The notes under the pieces were generated by a model. The model made no database searches and was not told the origin of the DNA. It worked only from the letters and a program-made list of their open reading frames with translations. A DNA stretch of 64,000 nucleotides from an uncultured Pelagibacteraceae bacterium (GTDB lineage: Bacteria > Pseudomonadota > Alphaproteobacteria > Pelagibacterales > Pelagibacteraceae): assembly GCA_902624015.1 (NCBI GenBank), contig CACNVV010000001.1:40864-104863 (forward strand). The letters are read 5' to 3'. A program made the position numbers and the translations under genes. How positions within the stretch are numbered: the first letter of the stretch is position 1; each line of letters begins with the position of its first letter. Below are positions 17,424 to 27,899 of the stretch, piece after piece.

Positions 17424-17813
17424 ATGAATAAAATTATAGTAGAAGTATCGGTTGGTGAGCTTTTAGACAAAATTTCAATCTTAGAAATTAAAAAAGAAAA
17501 AATTAAAGACCCTGAAAAACTAAAATTCATATCAAATGAACATTCGATTCTTAAAGATCAATTAGAAAAAAATGTTAAATCTGATGATAAACTAAATAAA
17601 TTATTCCAAGATTTAAAAAAAATTAATGCCAAGTTATGGATTATAGAAGATGACAAAAGAGATTGTGAAAAAAATAAGGACTTCGGTGATAAATTTATAA
17701 AATTATCAAGAGATGTTCATTTCTTAAATGATGACCGGGCAAAAATTAAATTAGAAATGAATAATCACACTGGATCAATTATCAAAGAGATTAAAGAATA
17801 TACTAGCTACTAA
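17424..17813 (+). CDS. DUF6165-like protein
   Basis: VEVSVGELLDKISILEIKKEKI...KLWIIEDDKRDCE; resembles small proteins found near glycosyltransferases. Confidence 0.7.
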   Translation: MNKIIVEVSVGELLDKISILEIKKEKIKDPEKLKFISNEHSILKDQLEKNVKSDDKLNKLFQDLKKINAKLWIIEDDKRDCEKNKDFGDKFIKLSRDVHFLNDDRAKIKLEMNNHTGSIIKEIKEYTSY

Positions 17814-18591
17814 AAACTTTAGGAAACCAATCATCTCTCATCAAATCTCCTGTTTTTAAATTTATCCCATCAAATGGAGGTGAGGTTGGCCCTCCTCTAT
17901 CAATATATTTTACATCATCTCCTATAAATCGCATCGAAAATGCTCTTCGTGATTTAGAAGAATTATTTCCAGTTGAACCATGTACGGTTTTAAAATTAAA
18001 CAAAACAGCATCCCCTAAACTTAATTCTGGAATTAAAATATTTTTTTCAAATTCTTTTTGAGGTGGTAAATTCATAAAAGCACTATCATCATCATACCAA
18101 GATTGGTTATTTGACCATTTTGTAGGTCTAATTAACTTTGACCATTTGTGAGAACCTAAAATTAATTTAAGATTATTTTTCTGATCAACCTCATCTAATG
18201 GAATCCAAAAACTTCCAGTATCGTTACCATCAACACAATAATAAGGCATATCTTGATGCCAAGGTGTTTCTTTATGAGTACCTGGATCCTTTATAAAAAT
18301 ATGTTCATGAAAAATTTGAGTAGTTTTAGAATTAGTTGCTTCTGCAACTATTTGAGCTCCAGGTGAGTTATATAAACAATCCTTAAATTCTTCTATTCTT
18401 TCCCAATTACAATAATCCTCAAAGAAACTTCCATTATCATCAGTTACATTTTCTCTTCCATGCTTACTTGGACTATCTAAAACTTTTTGAAATCCTTTTC
18501 TAAGTGGCTCAATCCAATCTTTAAATACATTTTTAATTATTATTACACCATTACTTTGATAATCATTAATTTGTTTCTCTAATAAAAACAT
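17803..18591 (-). CDS. Phytanoyl-CoA dioxygenase (PhyH)-family Fe(II)/2-oxoglutarate oxygenase
   Basis: TPWHQDMPYY (HxD), distal His in VHGSTGNNSS with RRAFSMRFIGDD. Confidence 0.9.
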   Translation of the reverse strand: MFLLEKQINDYQSNGVIIIKNVFKDWIEPLRKGFQKVLDSPSKHGRENVTDDNGSFFEDYCNWERIEEFKDCLYNSPGAQIVAEATNSKTTQIFHEHIFIKDPGTHKETPWHQDMPYYCVDGNDTGSFWIPLDEVDQKNNLKLILGSHKWSKLIRPTKWSNNQSWYDDDSAFMNLPPQKEFEKNILIPELSLGDAVLFNFKTVHGSTGNNSSKSRRAFSMRFIGDDVKYIDRGGPTSPPFDGINLKTGDLMRDDWFPKVFSS

Positions 18592-20918: not shown

Positions 20919-21959
20919 TTAATGATTAATTGATGAAGAAAAATTCCAAGAGCAATCAAAACTTGGTATGTAAACTCTTGCTAATTTTGCATTCCCAAAA
21001 TTTTGGTTGAAAACATTTAACCAATTTTCAACCTGCTGTGGTTTTTTGTCCTGACTACCTACTTGAGCAGTTATAACACCTTTTGGTTTTAATATTCTTA
21101 CTAAAGAGTCCATATTTTTAGCAGCTAAATCTATACAAAATTGATCATCATTAAGATCAACAAAAATATGATCATAAGTGTCATCACCTACTGATTTAAT
21201 ACTTTCGAAAGCATCACCCCAAACACATTTTACAGAATTTTTTTCAGTTGCTTTTTTTCCAATATCTCCAAGATGTTTATTACAAACTTCTACAACTTCA
21301 GGATCTAGTTCGTACCAATCGATAAAATTAAATTTTTTAGAAATACATTCTCTTGCTACACCACCGTCACCTCCCCCAATAATAGCAGCCCTTTCATTGT
21401 TTTTATTTAAATCTAAACCAGAACCAACAAAAGTTGAGCTGTATAAATGTTCATCTGTTGAAGCAACTTGAATTTCTCCATCTATAAATAATGATTTTCC
21501 AAACTGCTCTAAATCTAGTATTTCAATATGTTGACCTACTTTAGATTTAAAATCTTCTAAAACATCGTTTACTACGTATGATTTTTGTAAACCTGGTGAG
21601 CTATAAATGTCATGATAAAGAGATTTTGTATCTCTGTTAAACTCTTTTTTTACTATTCTTTTATGTTCGAATTCTTTTTTAATAATATCTATTGCAACGG
21701 AAGGGCTTACCTTTCCACAAGTAAAAAAATCAAAACTAATAATACCCTTTTCTGGAAATGTATGAAAGCTAATGTGACTTTCAGCCAATAAAGCTAAAAT
21801 TGTAAAACCTTGTGGTTCAAATTTATATTTTGAAATATTAAGAATTGTCACTTTAGCAGCTTTTGCAATATCATGAATCACCTTTTCAAATACAACAGGC
21901 TCATATTCTTTTGTAGTTCCAATAATATCTAGGGTAATGTGTTCGCCAACTTTTGTCAT
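20919..21959 (-). CDS. Fused S-adenosylmethionine decarboxylase / spermidine synthase-like aminopropyltransferase
   Basis: N-terminus has the SpeD LLAESHISFHTFPEKGIISFDFFTCG cleavage/active site; C-terminus has spermidine synthase IIGGGDGGVARE...VWGDAFE...DHIFVDLNDD motifs. Confidence 0.88.
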   Translation of the reverse strand: MTKVGEHITLDIIGTTKEYEPVVFEKVIHDIAKAAKVTILNISKYKFEPQGFTILALLAESHISFHTFPEKGIISFDFFTCGKVSPSVAIDIIKKEFEHKRIVKKEFNRDTKSLYHDIYSSPGLQKSYVVNDVLEDFKSKVGQHIEILDLEQFGKSLFIDGEIQVASTDEHLYSSTFVGSGLDLNKNNERAAIIGGGDGGVARECISKKFNFIDWYELDPEVVEVCNKHLGDIGKKATEKNSVKCVWGDAFESIKSVGDDTYDHIFVDLNDDQFCIDLAAKNMDSLVRILKPKGVITAQVGSQDKKPQQVENWLNVFNQNFGNAKLARVYIPSFDCSWNFSSSINH

Positions 21960-22044: not shown

Positions 22045-24078
22045 GTGAAAAACAATTGGTCAAATTTAGAAGCAAAAAAATACATTAAAAAGTATACAAA
22101 ACTTGGTCATTCAAAAGATATGGCTTTGAGAGTATATACAACCAGATTATTAGGAAGAAATAGTGAACTTGTTCTACATGGAGGTGGAAATACTTCTGTA
22201 AAAACATCAATTAAAGATATTGATGGTAAAAATTACGAGGTACTCTGTGTTAAAGGAAGTGGTTGGGACATGGCTGAAATAGAGCCAGCAGGTTTACCAG
22301 CAGTAAAATTAAGTCCACTTTTAGCTCTTAAAAATAAAAAATATTTAAGCGATGAAGATATGGTTGCATATCAAAAAAGAAACTTAATTGATATTAAATC
22401 CCCTAACCCATCTGTAGAAACTTTTCTACATGCCTTTTTACCTTTCAAATTTGTTGATCACACCCATTCTGATGCAATTATGGATGTAACAAATAGGCCA
22501 AATGGTAAGGATCTCTGTAAAAAAATTTTTGGGCCCAAGGTTAGTATTGTGCCTTACGTAATGCCTGGATTTGGTTTGGCTCAAAAAATTAATGAGGTTT
22601 ACAAGAAAAACCCAAATATTAACTGCTTAATACTTTTAAACCATGGAATATTTACTTTTGATAATGACGCTAAAAGATCTTATGACTTAATGATTAAATA
22701 TGTTTCTATAGCAGAAAAAACTATTAGAAAATTAAAACGAAAAAAAATAAAACAAATTAAAAATTATAATACAAAGTTTAAACCATATGAAATTGCACCA
22801 ATTCTGAGGGGTTTGTTAAGCGAAAAAAAAGATGAAAAATTTATACTAAATTTTAGATCAAATAAAACTTTAGATTATTTTATAAATGGTAAAGAAGTTA
22901 AAAGATATTCTAGTATTGGAACTGCTACTCCTGATCACGTTATTAGGGTCAAGCCCTTTCCATTGGTAATTACACCAAAGCAAAATTCAAGTATTGAAGA
23001 TTTCAAAAAAATAGCAGAGAAAAGTTTTAAAGACTATAAAAAAAAATATGTGAAGTATTTCAATACGAATAAGAAAAAGGTTAAAGATAAAAAAACAATG
23101 TTAGATACATCTCCTAGGGTAATCTTGGTACAAAACGTTGGTTTATTTAGTGTGGGTGATAGTTTAAGTGCTTCAAAAATAGCTGGAGATCTAACTGAAA
23201 CAAATGCTAGAGTAATTTCATCAGTTGAAGAAACAACAAAATACAAGTTTATACCTGAAAAAGATTTATTTGATGTTGAATATTGGTCGCTAGAACAAGC
23301 TAAAATTAAAAAAACTAAAAAAATTCTTCAAGGAAATGTTGTTGTAATAACTGGTGGATTTGGTGCAATTGGTTCTGCTACTTATAAACTATTTAAAAGT
23401 TATGGAGCAGAAATTGTATTACTTGATTACGATTCTAATAAAGTAAAAGAAATGCAAAGTAAAATTAAAGATCTATGTTTGCACTGTGATGTAAGAAACA
23501 AAAAAAGTGTAAAAAATGCTTTTAAAAAAATTTGCGAACAATATGGTGGCATCGATATTTTAATATCAAATGCTGGAACAGCAGTTGGTGGATCAATTGC
23601 TGAAGTAGAAGATAATGTTTTAAGAAAAAGCTTTGAAGATAATTTTTTCTCTCATCAAAATTGTGCTTCAGAAACAATTAAAATAATGAAAAAACAAAAT
23701 ATTCAAGGATGTTTATTGTTTAATATTTCAAAACAATCAGTAAATCCTGGAAAAAACTTTGGACCTTACGGTCTTCCAAAAACAGCTTTATTAAGTTTAT
23801 GCAAACAATATGCGGTTGATTATGGATCACTTGGCATTAGATCAAATGGAGTTAATGCTGATAGAATTAGAAGTGGTCTTTTAAATGATGGAATGATTAA
23901 ATCTCGAGCTAAGGCAAGAGAAGTTTCGACGGATGAATATATGAGAGGAAACTTGCTTTTAAACGAGGTAAAAGCAGAAGATGTTGCAAAAGCCTTTTTT
24001 CATTTAGCAGTATCGAAAAAAACAACTGGAGCAGTACTAACTGTTGATGGTGGAAATATAGCTGCTTCCCTTAGATAA
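22045..24078 (+). CDS. Bifunctional class II aldolase / short-chain dehydrogenase
   Basis: GTG start. N-term: HGGGNTSVK, HTHSDA and LLNHGIFTF metal-binding class II aldolase motifs. C-term: VVITGGFGAIG and S...YGLPK SDR motifs. Confidence 0.9.
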   Translation: MKNNWSNLEAKKYIKKYTKLGHSKDMALRVYTTRLLGRNSELVLHGGGNTSVKTSIKDIDGKNYEVLCVKGSGWDMAEIEPAGLPAVKLSPLLALKNKKYLSDEDMVAYQKRNLIDIKSPNPSVETFLHAFLPFKFVDHTHSDAIMDVTNRPNGKDLCKKIFGPKVSIVPYVMPGFGLAQKINEVYKKNPNINCLILLNHGIFTFDNDAKRSYDLMIKYVSIAEKTIRKLKRKKIKQIKNYNTKFKPYEIAPILRGLLSEKKDEKFILNFRSNKTLDYFINGKEVKRYSSIGTATPDHVIRVKPFPLVITPKQNSSIEDFKKIAEKSFKDYKKKYVKYFNTNKKKVKDKKTMLDTSPRVILVQNVGLFSVGDSLSASKIAGDLTETNARVISSVEETTKYKFIPEKDLFDVEYWSLEQAKIKKTKKILQGNVVVITGGFGAIGSATYKLFKSYGAEIVLLDYDSNKVKEMQSKIKDLCLHCDVRNKKSVKNAFKKICEQYGGIDILISNAGTAVGGSIAEVEDNVLRKSFEDNFFSHQNCASETIKIMKKQNIQGCLLFNISKQSVNPGKNFGPYGLPKTALLSLCKQYAVDYGSLGIRSNGVNADRIRSGLLNDGMIKSRAKAREVSTDEYMRGNLLLNEVKAEDVAKAFFHLAVSKKTTGAVLTVDGGNIAASLR

Positions 24079-24079
24079 T

Positions 24080-25150
24080 TTAATTAAATAACTTTTTTAA
24101 TCCATCAGAAGAAGCTTCGGAAATCCCTTTTTCTGTAATCAAACCTGTAACATATTTTGCAGGTGTAACATCAAACGCTAAGTTCATTGCTTTACTTTTA
24201 TTCGGATATATCAAAACTTTTTTAATTTTATTATTTTCATCAATTCCTTCTATATGAGATAATTCCTCAGAGCTTCTCTCTTCTATTGGAATATCTTTTG
24301 CATCTTTAATATCCCAATCAATTGTTGAGCTTGGAAGGGCCACATAAAAGGGAACATTGTTATCATAAGCAGCTAATGCTTTAAGGTAAGTTCCAATTTT
24401 ATTACAAACATCTCCATTAGATAAAGTCCTATCAGTGCCTACAATACACATGTCAACTTCACCCCTTTGCATTAAAATACCCCCTGTATTATCAGCGATA
24501 ATAGTATTGGGAATTTCCTCTTCGTTTAATTCGTATGAAGTTAAGTTTGCACCTTGATTTCTTGGTCTTGTTTCATCTACCCATACATGCACTGGTATAC
24601 CTTTTTTATGAGCATGGTAAATTGGTGATGTAGCTGTACCCCAATTGATTGTTGCTAACCAACCAGCATTACAATGTGTTAATATATTTACAGTATCTTT
24701 CTTTTTATTATAAATTTCTTCAATTATTTTCAATCCATTAATACCAATTTTTTCGCAAAACTTTTCATCTTCATCGCATATTTCTTTTGCTTCATTCAGG
24801 GCAATACTTAATATTTGATCACTATTAATTCCTGATAATTTTTTCATCATACGATCAACAGCCCATTTTAAATTAATAGCAGTAGGTCTAGATTGAATTA
24901 GTTCTTCTGAACTTTTCTTAATAAATTCAGGACTATTGTTTTCTTTAACTGCTAAAGCCATTCCATAAGCAGCTGTTCCACCAATTAATGGAGCACCCCT
25001 GACTTCCATTACTTTAATAGCATTAATAGCATCTTTTACTGTTTTAAGTTCTTTGATGATGAAACGATGTGGAAGTTTAGTTTGATCAATTATCTTAACA
25101 ACATTTTCCTCATACCAAATTGTTCGATATTCTTTTCCCTCTATTCTCAT
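24080..25150 (-). CDS. mtnA: S-methyl-5-thioribose-1-phosphate isomerase
   Basis: VRGAPLIGGTAAYGMAL; LTHCNAGWLAT; VGTDRTLSNGDVCNKIGTY. Confidence 0.93.
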   Translation of the reverse strand: MRIEGKEYRTIWYEENVVKIIDQTKLPHRFIIKELKTVKDAINAIKVMEVRGAPLIGGTAAYGMALAVKENNSPEFIKKSSEELIQSRPTAINLKWAVDRMMKKLSGINSDQILSIALNEAKEICDEDEKFCEKIGINGLKIIEEIYNKKKDTVNILTHCNAGWLATINWGTATSPIYHAHKKGIPVHVWVDETRPRNQGANLTSYELNEEEIPNTIIADNTGGILMQRGEVDMCIVGTDRTLSNGDVCNKIGTYLKALAAYDNNVPFYVALPSSTIDWDIKDAKDIPIEERSSEELSHIEGIDENNKIKKVLIYPNKSKAMNLAFDVTPAKYVTGLITEKGISEASSDGLKKLFN

Positions 25151-25151
25151 A

Positions 25152-26090
25152 TTAATAAATTTTATTTAAATATTTAATTATCTCTTTGCTTCTAGGATCC
25201 TCGTCTGCAAAACATTTTGTTAAAGCTATTCCATGATAGTCACCTAATAATTTTTTATTTTTACAATGTGTATCACTTAAATCAAAAAATTTTATATTTT
25301 TAAATTTTTTCATAAAACTTAAAGTTTTTCTAGTATCAGCCCAATCTTTATCATGAGTAAATAATATAACGTCACCTATCTGAGACCAATTAATAAGAGA
25401 TTTTTTATAATTTCTCCAATTTATCCAACCTTGATCTGGATTTTTTGCTTTTGCAAATTTGCCTGCAAAACCTAAATGAAGAGAAATTACTCCATTTATA
25501 AGTTCAGGATAATTTGATTTTAATACAAAAGAACTTTTCGCACCTGCTGAATGTCCAGATAATAAAATATTATTGAAACCTTTTTTTTTAAAATCATCAA
25601 TTTTTAACTTCATTACTTTACTTTTTTGATTGTCTTTATATTTGTCAATTAAAAGAATTCCATTTTTATCTTTTAAATTTAATACGCTATTTACATCCTG
25701 ATTATTTTTGTTGTAGATTTCCCAAAATTTATCTTCCTCATTTTGAGTCCAGCCTTTTACACCAGAACACAATTGATATGTTTTTATAGTTAAATCTTTT
25801 ATTTGAATTCCATCTAATTGATATATTGCAGGCGGTATTTTGCTCCATGGTCTATTGCAACCATTTAATTTTCGATCTCCACCCCACTGACCATGGGTAT
25901 AAATTAAAATAATAGTTTTATCTTTGTTAATATTTTCGTCTAATTCATAAGGATTACCTTTGTTATCTACAAAAGAATTTAATTTTGAAATTTTCTTTAA
26001 ATCTCTTTCAAAACGTTTTTCGGATTTAGTTTGAGCAAAAGAAAAATTGTTTAAAAAAATTAATAAAATTAATATTAATTTAATTTTCAT
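25152..26090 (-). CDS. Secreted alpha/beta-hydrolase-like protein, paralogue of the adjacent upstream gene
   Basis: Signal peptide; IILIYTHGQWGG; nucleophile elbow LLSGHSAGAKS. Confidence 0.75.
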   Translation of the reverse strand: MKIKLILILLIFLNNFSFAQTKSEKRFERDLKKISKLNSFVDNKGNPYELDENINKDKTIILIYTHGQWGGDRKLNGCNRPWSKIPPAIYQLDGIQIKDLTIKTYQLCSGVKGWTQNEEDKFWEIYNKNNQDVNSVLNLKDKNGILLIDKYKDNQKSKVMKLKIDDFKKKGFNNILLSGHSAGAKSSFVLKSNYPELINGVISLHLGFAGKFAKAKNPDQGWINWRNYKKSLINWSQIGDVILFTHDKDWADTRKTLSFMKKFKNIKFFDLSDTHCKNKKLLGDYHGIALTKCFADEDPRSKEIIKYLNKIY

Positions 26091-27027
26091 TTATTCGTGA
26101 GGCTATATAATCTAATATTGTTGGATTATAATACTGAAAACAAAGTCCAACATCCATATCATGACCTTTTTTTACTGGTTCCTCCCAGTCATCTCCTTTT
26201 CTCTTACAGCTCTTTCCATTAATTTTATAATTTTCTGAAATTACTATTCTTTTCATCCCAGGAATTTCCTCTAACCAATCAGATAATAATCCTTCATATT
26301 TATCTTTTGGATGTGTAAAGGCTAATATAGGAACTTTTAAATTATTTTTAATTTCGTCATTCATCTTTTGTCGTAAATCATGAGGTCCTTGATATTTTTT
26401 TCTAAATTTAGCCATTGCTTTTTCTACACCATTTTTTTTTACTTTATATTTAGAAGATAATTTTCCAAAACATGCTTGCATATAAGATATGCCTCCACCT
26501 GCCTTATCTGGGTACCTAGACATAAACAATAAAGTGGTTAAACCGCCACAAGAATGTCCAGTAACAAAAACTTGTTTTCTTGGTACTCCCGCATCTACAA
26601 ATTTTTCAATTAATTCTAAATTTAATTCTACTCTTTTATCCAATATATGCTTACCTTCATAAATTTTTGGTACAGGCTTTAACCACCACCAATCCTTTTT
26701 TTTAGACATGTTTTTAGACATATCTCCTCTAAGATGAGTTGAGCATAAATTATAAACCATTATTTTTTTTCCATTAACCTCTTGGTCTATCAAAGATGCA
26801 TGATTTCTTAACATTGATACCCATGTACAATTTATTGCGATATCATTTTCGTCTTGTCCATGATTATAAATTAAAATAATTTTATTTTTAGGATCCTTAA
26901 TTTCAAAATTTTTAATCAATCTAACCTCTTTATTAATGAATCCGCTTTCACTAATCTTATCGTTAGGTCCTGCATAAGCTAGAGTTGAAAATAATATAAA
27001 AGTAAAAATTAATAATATTTTTCTCAT
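26080..27027 (-). CDS. Secreted alpha/beta-hydrolase-like protein
   Basis: Signal peptide; IILIYNHGQDEND; nucleophile elbow VTGHSCGGLTT; overlaps both neighbours. Confidence 0.75.
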   Translation of the reverse strand: MRKILLIFTFILFSTLAYAGPNDKISESGFINKEVRLIKNFEIKDPKNKIILIYNHGQDENDIAINCTWVSMLRNHASLIDQEVNGKKIMVYNLCSTHLRGDMSKNMSKKKDWWWLKPVPKIYEGKHILDKRVELNLELIEKFVDAGVPRKQVFVTGHSCGGLTTLLFMSRYPDKAGGGISYMQACFGKLSSKYKVKKNGVEKAMAKFRKKYQGPHDLRQKMNDEIKNNLKVPILAFTHPKDKYEGLLSDWLEEIPGMKRIVISENYKINGKSCKRKGDDWEEPVKKGHDMDVGLCFQYYNPTILDYIASRINEN

Positions 27028-27899
27028 TTTTTTAAAAGTATCCTACCTGCTACTGTTTTAAGTTTATCTTTTGTTTTTTGTGTTCTTTTTTCTGGGGCTG
27101 TAATTATAGCTACATCCAAACAATTATTTGTAGGATCTTTTGGATCAATATGATTTTCAAAATTATCAATTAAATTTTTAATCATATTTTTTGCTTTCGC
27201 AGCATTTCCTAAAAGAACTTTGATAACTTGCTGAACGTCAACGTTTTCATGATCTGGATGCCAACAATCATAATCAGTTATCATTGAAACTGAAGCGTAT
27301 CTAATTTCAGCTTCTCTTGCTAATTTTGCTTCTGGCATATTAGTCATTCCAATTACATCTGCTTTCCAAGATCTATATAAATTAGATTCTGCTAAAGTAG
27401 AAAATTGTGGTCCTTCCATAACAACATAAGTTCCATTTCTTTGATAGTCTATATTTGATTTTTTAATTGCTTCCTCACATGCATTCATTAGTCCATTAGA
27501 GGTTGGATGAGCCATTGACACATGAGCAACAATCTCATCATCAAAAAAAGTTTTTACTCTAGCAAATGTTCTATCAATAAATTGATCAACAATCACAAAT
27601 TTTCCAGGAGGTAAATTTTCTTTTAGAGAACCAACAGCAGATACAGAAACAATATCTGTTACACCTAACTGCTTAAGTGCATCTATATTTGCTCTAAAAT
27701 TTATATTTGAGGGAGAAACAAAATGTCCCCGTCCATGTCTTGGTAAAAAATAAACTTCCTTACTATTATATTTAGTTTTTAAAATCTGATCAGAAGGTTT
27801 GCCCCAAGGTGTTTGTAAATCAAGTAACTCTCTTTCTTTGAATTCCTCTACATCATAAAGACCACTACCACCAATTATTGCTAATTTATTTGTTGTCAT
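27024..27899 (-). CDS. mtnP: 5'-methylthioadenosine phosphorylase
   Basis: LAIIGGSGLYD; PRHGRGH; MEGPQFSTLAES; GMTNMPEAKLAREAEI. Confidence 0.93.
   Translation of the reverse strand: MTTNKLAIIGGSGLYDVEEFKERELLDLQTPWGKPSDQILKTKYNSKEVYFLPRHGRGHFVSPSNINFRANIDALKQLGVTDIVSVSAVGSLKENLPPGKFVIVDQFIDRTFARVKTFFDDEIVAHVSMAHPTSNGLMNACEEAIKKSNIDYQRNGTYVVMEGPQFSTLAESNLYRSWKADVIGMTNMPEAKLAREAEIRYASVSMITDYDCWHPDHENVDVQQVIKVLLGNAAKAKNMIKNLIDNFENHIDPKDPTNNCLDVAIITAPEKRTQKTKDKLKTVAGRILLKK

Follow-up and report, generated by a model that had tools for sequence, protein, structure and literature searches.

Putative exported hydrolases occupy recurrent seams of tightly coupled operons in SAR11 bacteria

Two genes encoding putative exported alpha/beta-hydrolase-type proteins, here named X and Y, lie between mtnP and mtnA in a SAR11 (Pelagibacter-like) genome and are probably accessory cargo: a few translationally coupled operon slots appear to hold interchangeable exported hydrolases, and the mtn operon would be a landing place for them and not their partner pathway. 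SAR11 bacteria, whose genomes are streamlined, rank with the most numerous cells in the sea. The evidence comes from the arrangement of the locus, the recurrence of related and unrelated hydrolase genes at the same seams, the spread of X between species and tracts of exchange within the open reading frame (ORF). Seams are written below as the two flanking genes separated by a slash.

Results

Two hydrolase-type genes are embedded between mtnP and mtnA

The analysed window, a stretch of 64,000 nucleotides, belongs to a draft genome of 933,139 bases in 43 contigs that is 73% complete. The original prediction had placed two related, co-directional serine-hydrolase-type genes, putatively exported and translationally coupled, between mtnP and mtnA, and this arrangement holds. 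ORF coordinates reproduced all three junctions on the minus strand, namely a 4-bp overlap in which the TGA of mtnP overlaps the ATG of X (ATGA), an 11-bp overlap of X with Y and a 1-bp gap between Y and mtnA, and both neighbours exceeded the curated NCBIfam cut-offs for their families (Table 1). Dozens of independent contigs, from single cells or MAGs, show mtnP-X-mtnA in this order and likewise coupled by ATGA, which rules out chance or mis-assembly; the X-Y pair was seen in the window's genome only.

Table 1 Features of the mtnP-X-Y-mtnA locus in the window.
Feature	Position	Strand	Basis
mtnP, S-methyl-5'-thioadenosine phosphorylase	27024..27899	-	NCBIfam PRK08931 above cut-off; sequence
X, exported alpha/beta-hydrolase-type protein (putative), 315 aa	26080..27027	-	ORF, alignment, model, sub-threshold Pfam/NCBIfam matches
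Codon of X Ser159, putative nucleophile (GHSCGG)	26551..26553	-	Invariant in 20 aligned members; sequence
X/Y overlap, 11 bp	26080..26090	-	Junction sequences, window vs L002-L012
Y, second distantly related exported hydrolase-type protein (putative), 312 aa	25152..26090	-	ORF, alignment, model, tree
mtnA, S-methyl-5-thioribose-1-phosphate isomerase	24080..25150	-	NCBIfam PRK05720 / TIGR00512 above cut-off

X and Y had also been taken for a tandem duplication. As a recent event this was rejected, given that the two proteins share only 23-24% identity (BLASTP, E 2e-6) and fall in separate supported clades, alongside proteins of other genomes, in a tree built from 98 non-redundant members, so that they are not each other's closest relatives. 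The protein nearest to X is L007, and that nearest to Y (L083, 84% identity) is encoded at a different locus in genome G152. In the nearest relatives found (L002-L005, L007 and L010) the order is mtnP-X-mtnA without Y, and the X stop and the mtnA start share an ATGA; in the window, X is three codons longer than in these relatives and the ATG of Y occupies the place of their mtnA start at the end of X. Y-type genes were found alone between mtnP and mtnA in three further genomes (G088, G290 and G218).

X and Y resemble exported alpha/beta hydrolases

The motifs said to be common to X and Y (IILIYxHGQ, YxLCS and GHSxG) are genuine. Alignment of 20 members, Y included, revealed invariant columns at HG 56-57, GHS 157-159, D242, H289 and four cysteines (X numbering). 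The putative catalytic triad is kept throughout, being assigned to Ser159, Asp242 and His289 in X (with conserved Cys 67, 95, 274 and 296) and to Ser181, Asp249 and His286 in Y (with Cys 78, 108, 276 and 293). Structural modelling of X gave a mean pLDDT of 82.5 and a pTM of 0.84, and a Foldseek search of the PDB with this model returned 720 matches at E <= 0.001, the top ones being alpha/beta hydrolases, with modest TM-scores (0.35-0.47) to the top single entries. Y is poorly modelled (pLDDT 61); its PDB matches still point to the same fold class. The nucleophile elbow, Asp and His in canonical order, together with the predicted fold, indicate that X and Y are members of the alpha/beta-hydrolase superfamily.

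Neither protein matched a Pfam or NCBIfam family above the curated cut-off. X weakly matches serine hydrolase and PHB-depolymerase-type models below cut-off, and assignment as an extracellular short-chain PHA depolymerase or PHB esterase was rejected, with scores of 19.7 bits for NF050058 (cut-off 150) and 18 bits for TIGR01840 (cut-off 107.85); across 20 family members, the PHA depolymerase and PHB esterase models gave weak matches only. X and Y thus resemble PHB depolymerases, dienelactone hydrolases and carboxylesterases of the superfamily in the GHSxG elbow, the oxyanion-site HG, the Ser-Asp-His order and the fold, but differ from these families in that all Pfam and NCBIfam scores are below cut-off. 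A search of 289 genomes of the class outside SAR11 gave weak alpha/beta-hydrolase matches only (best E 3.6e-13), and within the genomes searched the X/Y family was found in SAR11 relatives only.

Both proteins start with a leader that, read by eye, has a basic start, a hydrophobic stretch and an A-x-A-like end, which is AYA-G in X (signal peptide at about residues 1-21) and SFA-Q in Y. The four conserved cysteines fit an oxidising compartment. X and Y are likely to be exported to the periplasm or the outer surface, where, if periplasmic, they may hydrolyse esters.

Family members recur at a small number of operon seams

Members of the family occupy at least seven operon seams in SAR11, comprising mtnP/mtnA, SDR/folB (between uvrB-SDR and folB-uvrC-pgsA), azlD/dioxygenase, livH/livM, trkA-like/gpsA-like, mtnA/aldolase and a few others, in which gene names except mtnP and mtnA come from reading sequences and neighbourhood without a family search. 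The members are nearly always co-directional with both neighbours, compared with 69% of adjacent pairs lying on one strand in these loci. Mapping of seam labels on the 98-member tree gave 29 changes, 11 of them for mtnP/mtnA (of which starred branches force 10 or more) and 9 for SDR/folB, and these figures include losses and exchanges on a tree of recombining genes and are not counts of transpositions or jumps. Three seams (mtnP/mtnA, SDR/folB and c88/c89) are common to the X and Y families.

The position of X and Y had implied a role in MTA salvage, in which the hydrolases would split an external precursor, such as a methylthio ester or nucleoside ester, feeding MtnP and MtnA, with selection keeping the linkage. 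The mtn operon is indeed the home of about 40% of distinct members (35 of 98 at mtnP/mtnA, 5 at mtnA/aldolase and 1 directly after mtnA), and X, Y and a second hydrolase type described below all reach it. The neighbourhood check on homologue location nevertheless went against this role: 57 of the 98 non-redundant members lie outside the mtn operon, their hosts including operons for folate/DNA repair and for branched-chain amino-acid transport, and four genomes that are at least 90% complete and have neither mtnA nor mtnP (G143, G188, G296 and G294) carry the family at other seams. MtnP and MtnA are moreover cytosolic, whereas X and Y have signal peptides as read by eye. A functional MTA link was set aside as the main account on the strength of the other seams and the mtn-negative genomes, and we regard it as very unlikely.

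Occupancy of mtnP/mtnA, tallied by hand in 73 genus genomes among the matches listed, speaks in the same direction. The seam is empty in 43 of them (gap at most about 60 bases) and holds X/Y-family genes in 15 and a dienelactone-hydrolase-type (DLH) gene alone in one. Unrelated inserts in the remainder are PhyH-like (6), GFA-like (4, one by gap length only), glycosyltransferase-like (one), secreted glycosidase-like without a Pfam match (one) and, on the opposite strand, outer-membrane-barrel-like (2); a tautomerase-like gene is also among the non-hydrolase occupants. Putatively exported alpha/beta hydrolases account for roughly half of the occupants among the genomes listed, and since unrelated genes fill the seam in other genomes, it is not reserved for X and Y. 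At SDR/folB, 30 genus genomes were mostly empty, the two flanking genes overlapping by ATGA or standing a few bases apart (the window's own genome among these); 10 held X-family genes, 2 held DLH-type genes and a few had a short ORF or a short gap, such that putative exported hydrolases are nearly all of the occupants there.

Several side observations were made at these loci. A degraded copy of X, carrying a stop and an internal deletion, lies between mtnP and mtnA in L174 (G100:C12:13500-18500), apparently in the course of loss. The window carries a PhyH-like dioxygenase gene at 17803-18591 (-), at the end of an amino-acid transporter operon, which, judged by eye, appears to share its family with the mtnP/mtnA filler of G152, G166, G200 and G288 and may be cargo that changes seams. 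A gene for a small membrane protein of about 48 aa (MKKINPFLAAAIILIGGFFAFKIMSFFGCYVRIEDGNACWNLTIFGTK) was observed at SDR/folB, alone in L221 (2247-2399) and after X in L216 (3180-3330). The region upstream of apt contains varying nucleotide-sugar and glycosyltransferase genes (L040, L044, L046, L047, L052 and others), and the mtn operon thus adjoins a variable surface-sugar region in many genomes. Between mtnA and a fused speD-speE, a class II (fuculose-phosphate-type) aldolase was present in 47 loci and a bifunctional aldolase/short-chain dehydrogenase in 11, and every locus with mtnA and speD had exactly one of the two; in the window it is the bifunctional form (region 22045-24078 (+), 24080-27899 (-) and 20919-21959 (-)). 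This pattern looks like a DHAP-shunt-type MTA route with two exchangeable aldolases in SAR11.

A second hydrolase family shares the seams

The DLH-type family is likewise putatively exported, and one of its distant members (L020) matches Pfam DLH above cut-off. Comparison of DLH-type with X/Y proteins gave no BLAST match at E 1e-3. As the DLH type was first met in loci that had been retrieved on account of X, mtn or SDR, a biased sample, 197 genomes of the family were then searched with the DLH protein. Among the close members with context (67-97% identity), 20 of 21 are in X/Y seams, at livH/livM (8), SDR/folB (5), downstream of mtnA (5, one of them with a further gene between) and azlD/tauD (2); L243 sits elsewhere and L258 has one visible flank only. 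Nine more distant members with context (<=41% identity) lie outside these seams. Stacked pairs were encountered as X+Y (window), X+DLH (L009, L112, L106 and L177) and X+X (L067, L191 and L193). Homology between X and the DLH type cannot account for their shared seams, which may reflect seams that favour exported hydrolases through expression context, or carry-along via stacked pairs.

These data bear on the simplest explanation, namely that nothing special is involved: random insertions would survive only at co-directional seams, and repeats would stem from shared ancestry and homologous recombination. Single-gene indels in SAR11 core regions are already on record (PMC2217521), and flanking homology accounts for same-seam spread. 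Against this stand the sharing of seams by two families without detectable similarity, as found in 20 of 21 cases by a search not anchored on these loci, and the near-exclusive occupancy of SDR/folB by putative exported hydrolases, and we judge the explanation distinctly unlikely.

X has spread between species and exchanges its core between seams

Synonymous divergence of X between the window and five relatives (L006, L008, L009, L011 and L012) is 0.11-0.15, compared with 0.75-1.00 for mtnP, 1.36-1.63 for mtnA and 1.39-2.62 for apt in the same five comparisons, demonstrating that X at mtnP/mtnA has spread between species. In L006 and L009 the raised similarity starts in the last 90 bases of mtnP, the pattern expected of flank-mediated homologous recombination. 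The dN/dS of X over all eleven relatives is about 0.06-0.3, indicating purifying selection.

Exchange was also detected between copies at different seams. The genes of L021 (azlD/tauD) and L022 (livH/livM) share a 739-bp tract inside the ORF with 3 differences, but are 82% identical in the rest of the ORF and about 40% identical outside it, and L017 and L022 share a 548-bp tract with 2 differences. In a shuffle test, which assumes equal constraint along the gene, such tracts were expected in <1 in 2000; long cross-seam tracts number two only, and the other tracts could reflect constraint that varies along the gene. When pairs are matched for core identity, those from different seams are less similar than those from one seam over the first 22 and last 12 codons, as exemplified by the 0.92-0.99 core class (0.70/0.77 vs 0.88/0.89, the pairs not being independent). 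The tracts and the seam-specific ends are best explained by ectopic homologous recombination within the ORF. Between seams, similarity begins near the ATG and stops near the stop codon, which together with junctions of a few bases leaves no junction room for an att site or integrase.

Rapid interspecies exchange, patchy presence and stacking of variants (L067, L191, L193 and the window) might instead suggest hydrolases that modify a surface polysaccharide or lipid, for example by O-acyl removal, with phage pressure driving the exchange, and surface-sugar genes do lie upstream of apt in several genomes. On the other hand, X is under purifying selection, no surface-sugar genes neighbour the other seams in the loci read, and PADLOC defence models gave no X/Y match at E <= 0.1. 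Viral contigs searched with X and Y yielded no copies, and phage carriage of these genes was accordingly dropped. Such a role appears unlikely.

Discussion

Combining these results, the cargo account of X and Y, which we favour as fairly probable, can be outlined as follows. X/Y and DLH-type genes would occupy a limited and constant group of seams, each flanked by translationally coupled genes in one orientation and proposed to be mtnP/mtnA, mtnA/aldolase, SDR/folB, livH/livM, azlD/dioxygenase and trkA-like/gpsA-like, each gene fitting its seam from ATG to stop and presumably being expressed from the host operon. Ordinary homologous recombination in the core genes on either side would carry same-seam alleles from species to species, and exchange between seams would proceed by ectopic homologous recombination within the ORF, which overwrites the core of the copy already in place. 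New seams and stacked copies probably arise when a resident hydrolase or core gene anchors one end and the other end joins at short A-rich start-codon overlaps (ATGA). The likely job of the products is cleavage of an ester, lactone or similar bond in dissolved organic matter or a surface molecule. Among the points that count against this account, mtnP/mtnA and mtnA/aldolase form the commonest home, at a share above what a neutral landing place would need, and mtnP/mtnA, in also taking PhyH-, GFA-, tautomerase- and glycosyltransferase-like genes, is not a strict hydrolase slot. More tentatively, and with somewhat less than even confidence, we suggest that selection reserves a recombinase-free network of slots for exported hydrolases, in which families rotate, spread via flanks and swap cores, tuning periplasmic digestion.

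According to Wilhelm et al. 2007, SAR11 core regions have single-gene indel polymorphisms (62 indels), some of the indel genes are under purifying selection and were proposed to be kept as polymorphisms, and rearrangement is greater at operon boundaries than within operons (PMC2217521). X and Y are likewise single genes present or absent in a conserved order and, in the case of X, under purifying selection; the return of a family to the same operon-internal seams, the sharing of seams by unrelated hydrolases and the ectopic exchange go beyond what the consulted sections of that paper describe. Replacement flexible genomic islands, as portrayed in the abstract of their description, are present in all strains with similar functions encoded by different genes, and homologous recombination is involved (PMC4033161). 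Recombination in flanking core genes similarly fits the spread of X at one seam, but the unit here is one ORF within an operon and the content also changes seams. Within the open-licence literature, no earlier description of these genes or of recurrent hydrolase seams was found. Integron cassettes and other site-specific hotspots hold interchangeable single-gene cargo at fixed sites. The X/Y seams resemble integron cassettes in this respect, and differ from them in that the ORFs abut or overlap their neighbours, with no junction room for attC, attI or an integrase.

If the slots are real, part of the hydrolytic capacity of SAR11 would be a rapidly exchanged trait common to species, and predicting the function of these hydrolase genes from their operon neighbours would be misleading. 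The slot account would also provide a testable model for the recombinase-independent entry of single genes into tight operons.
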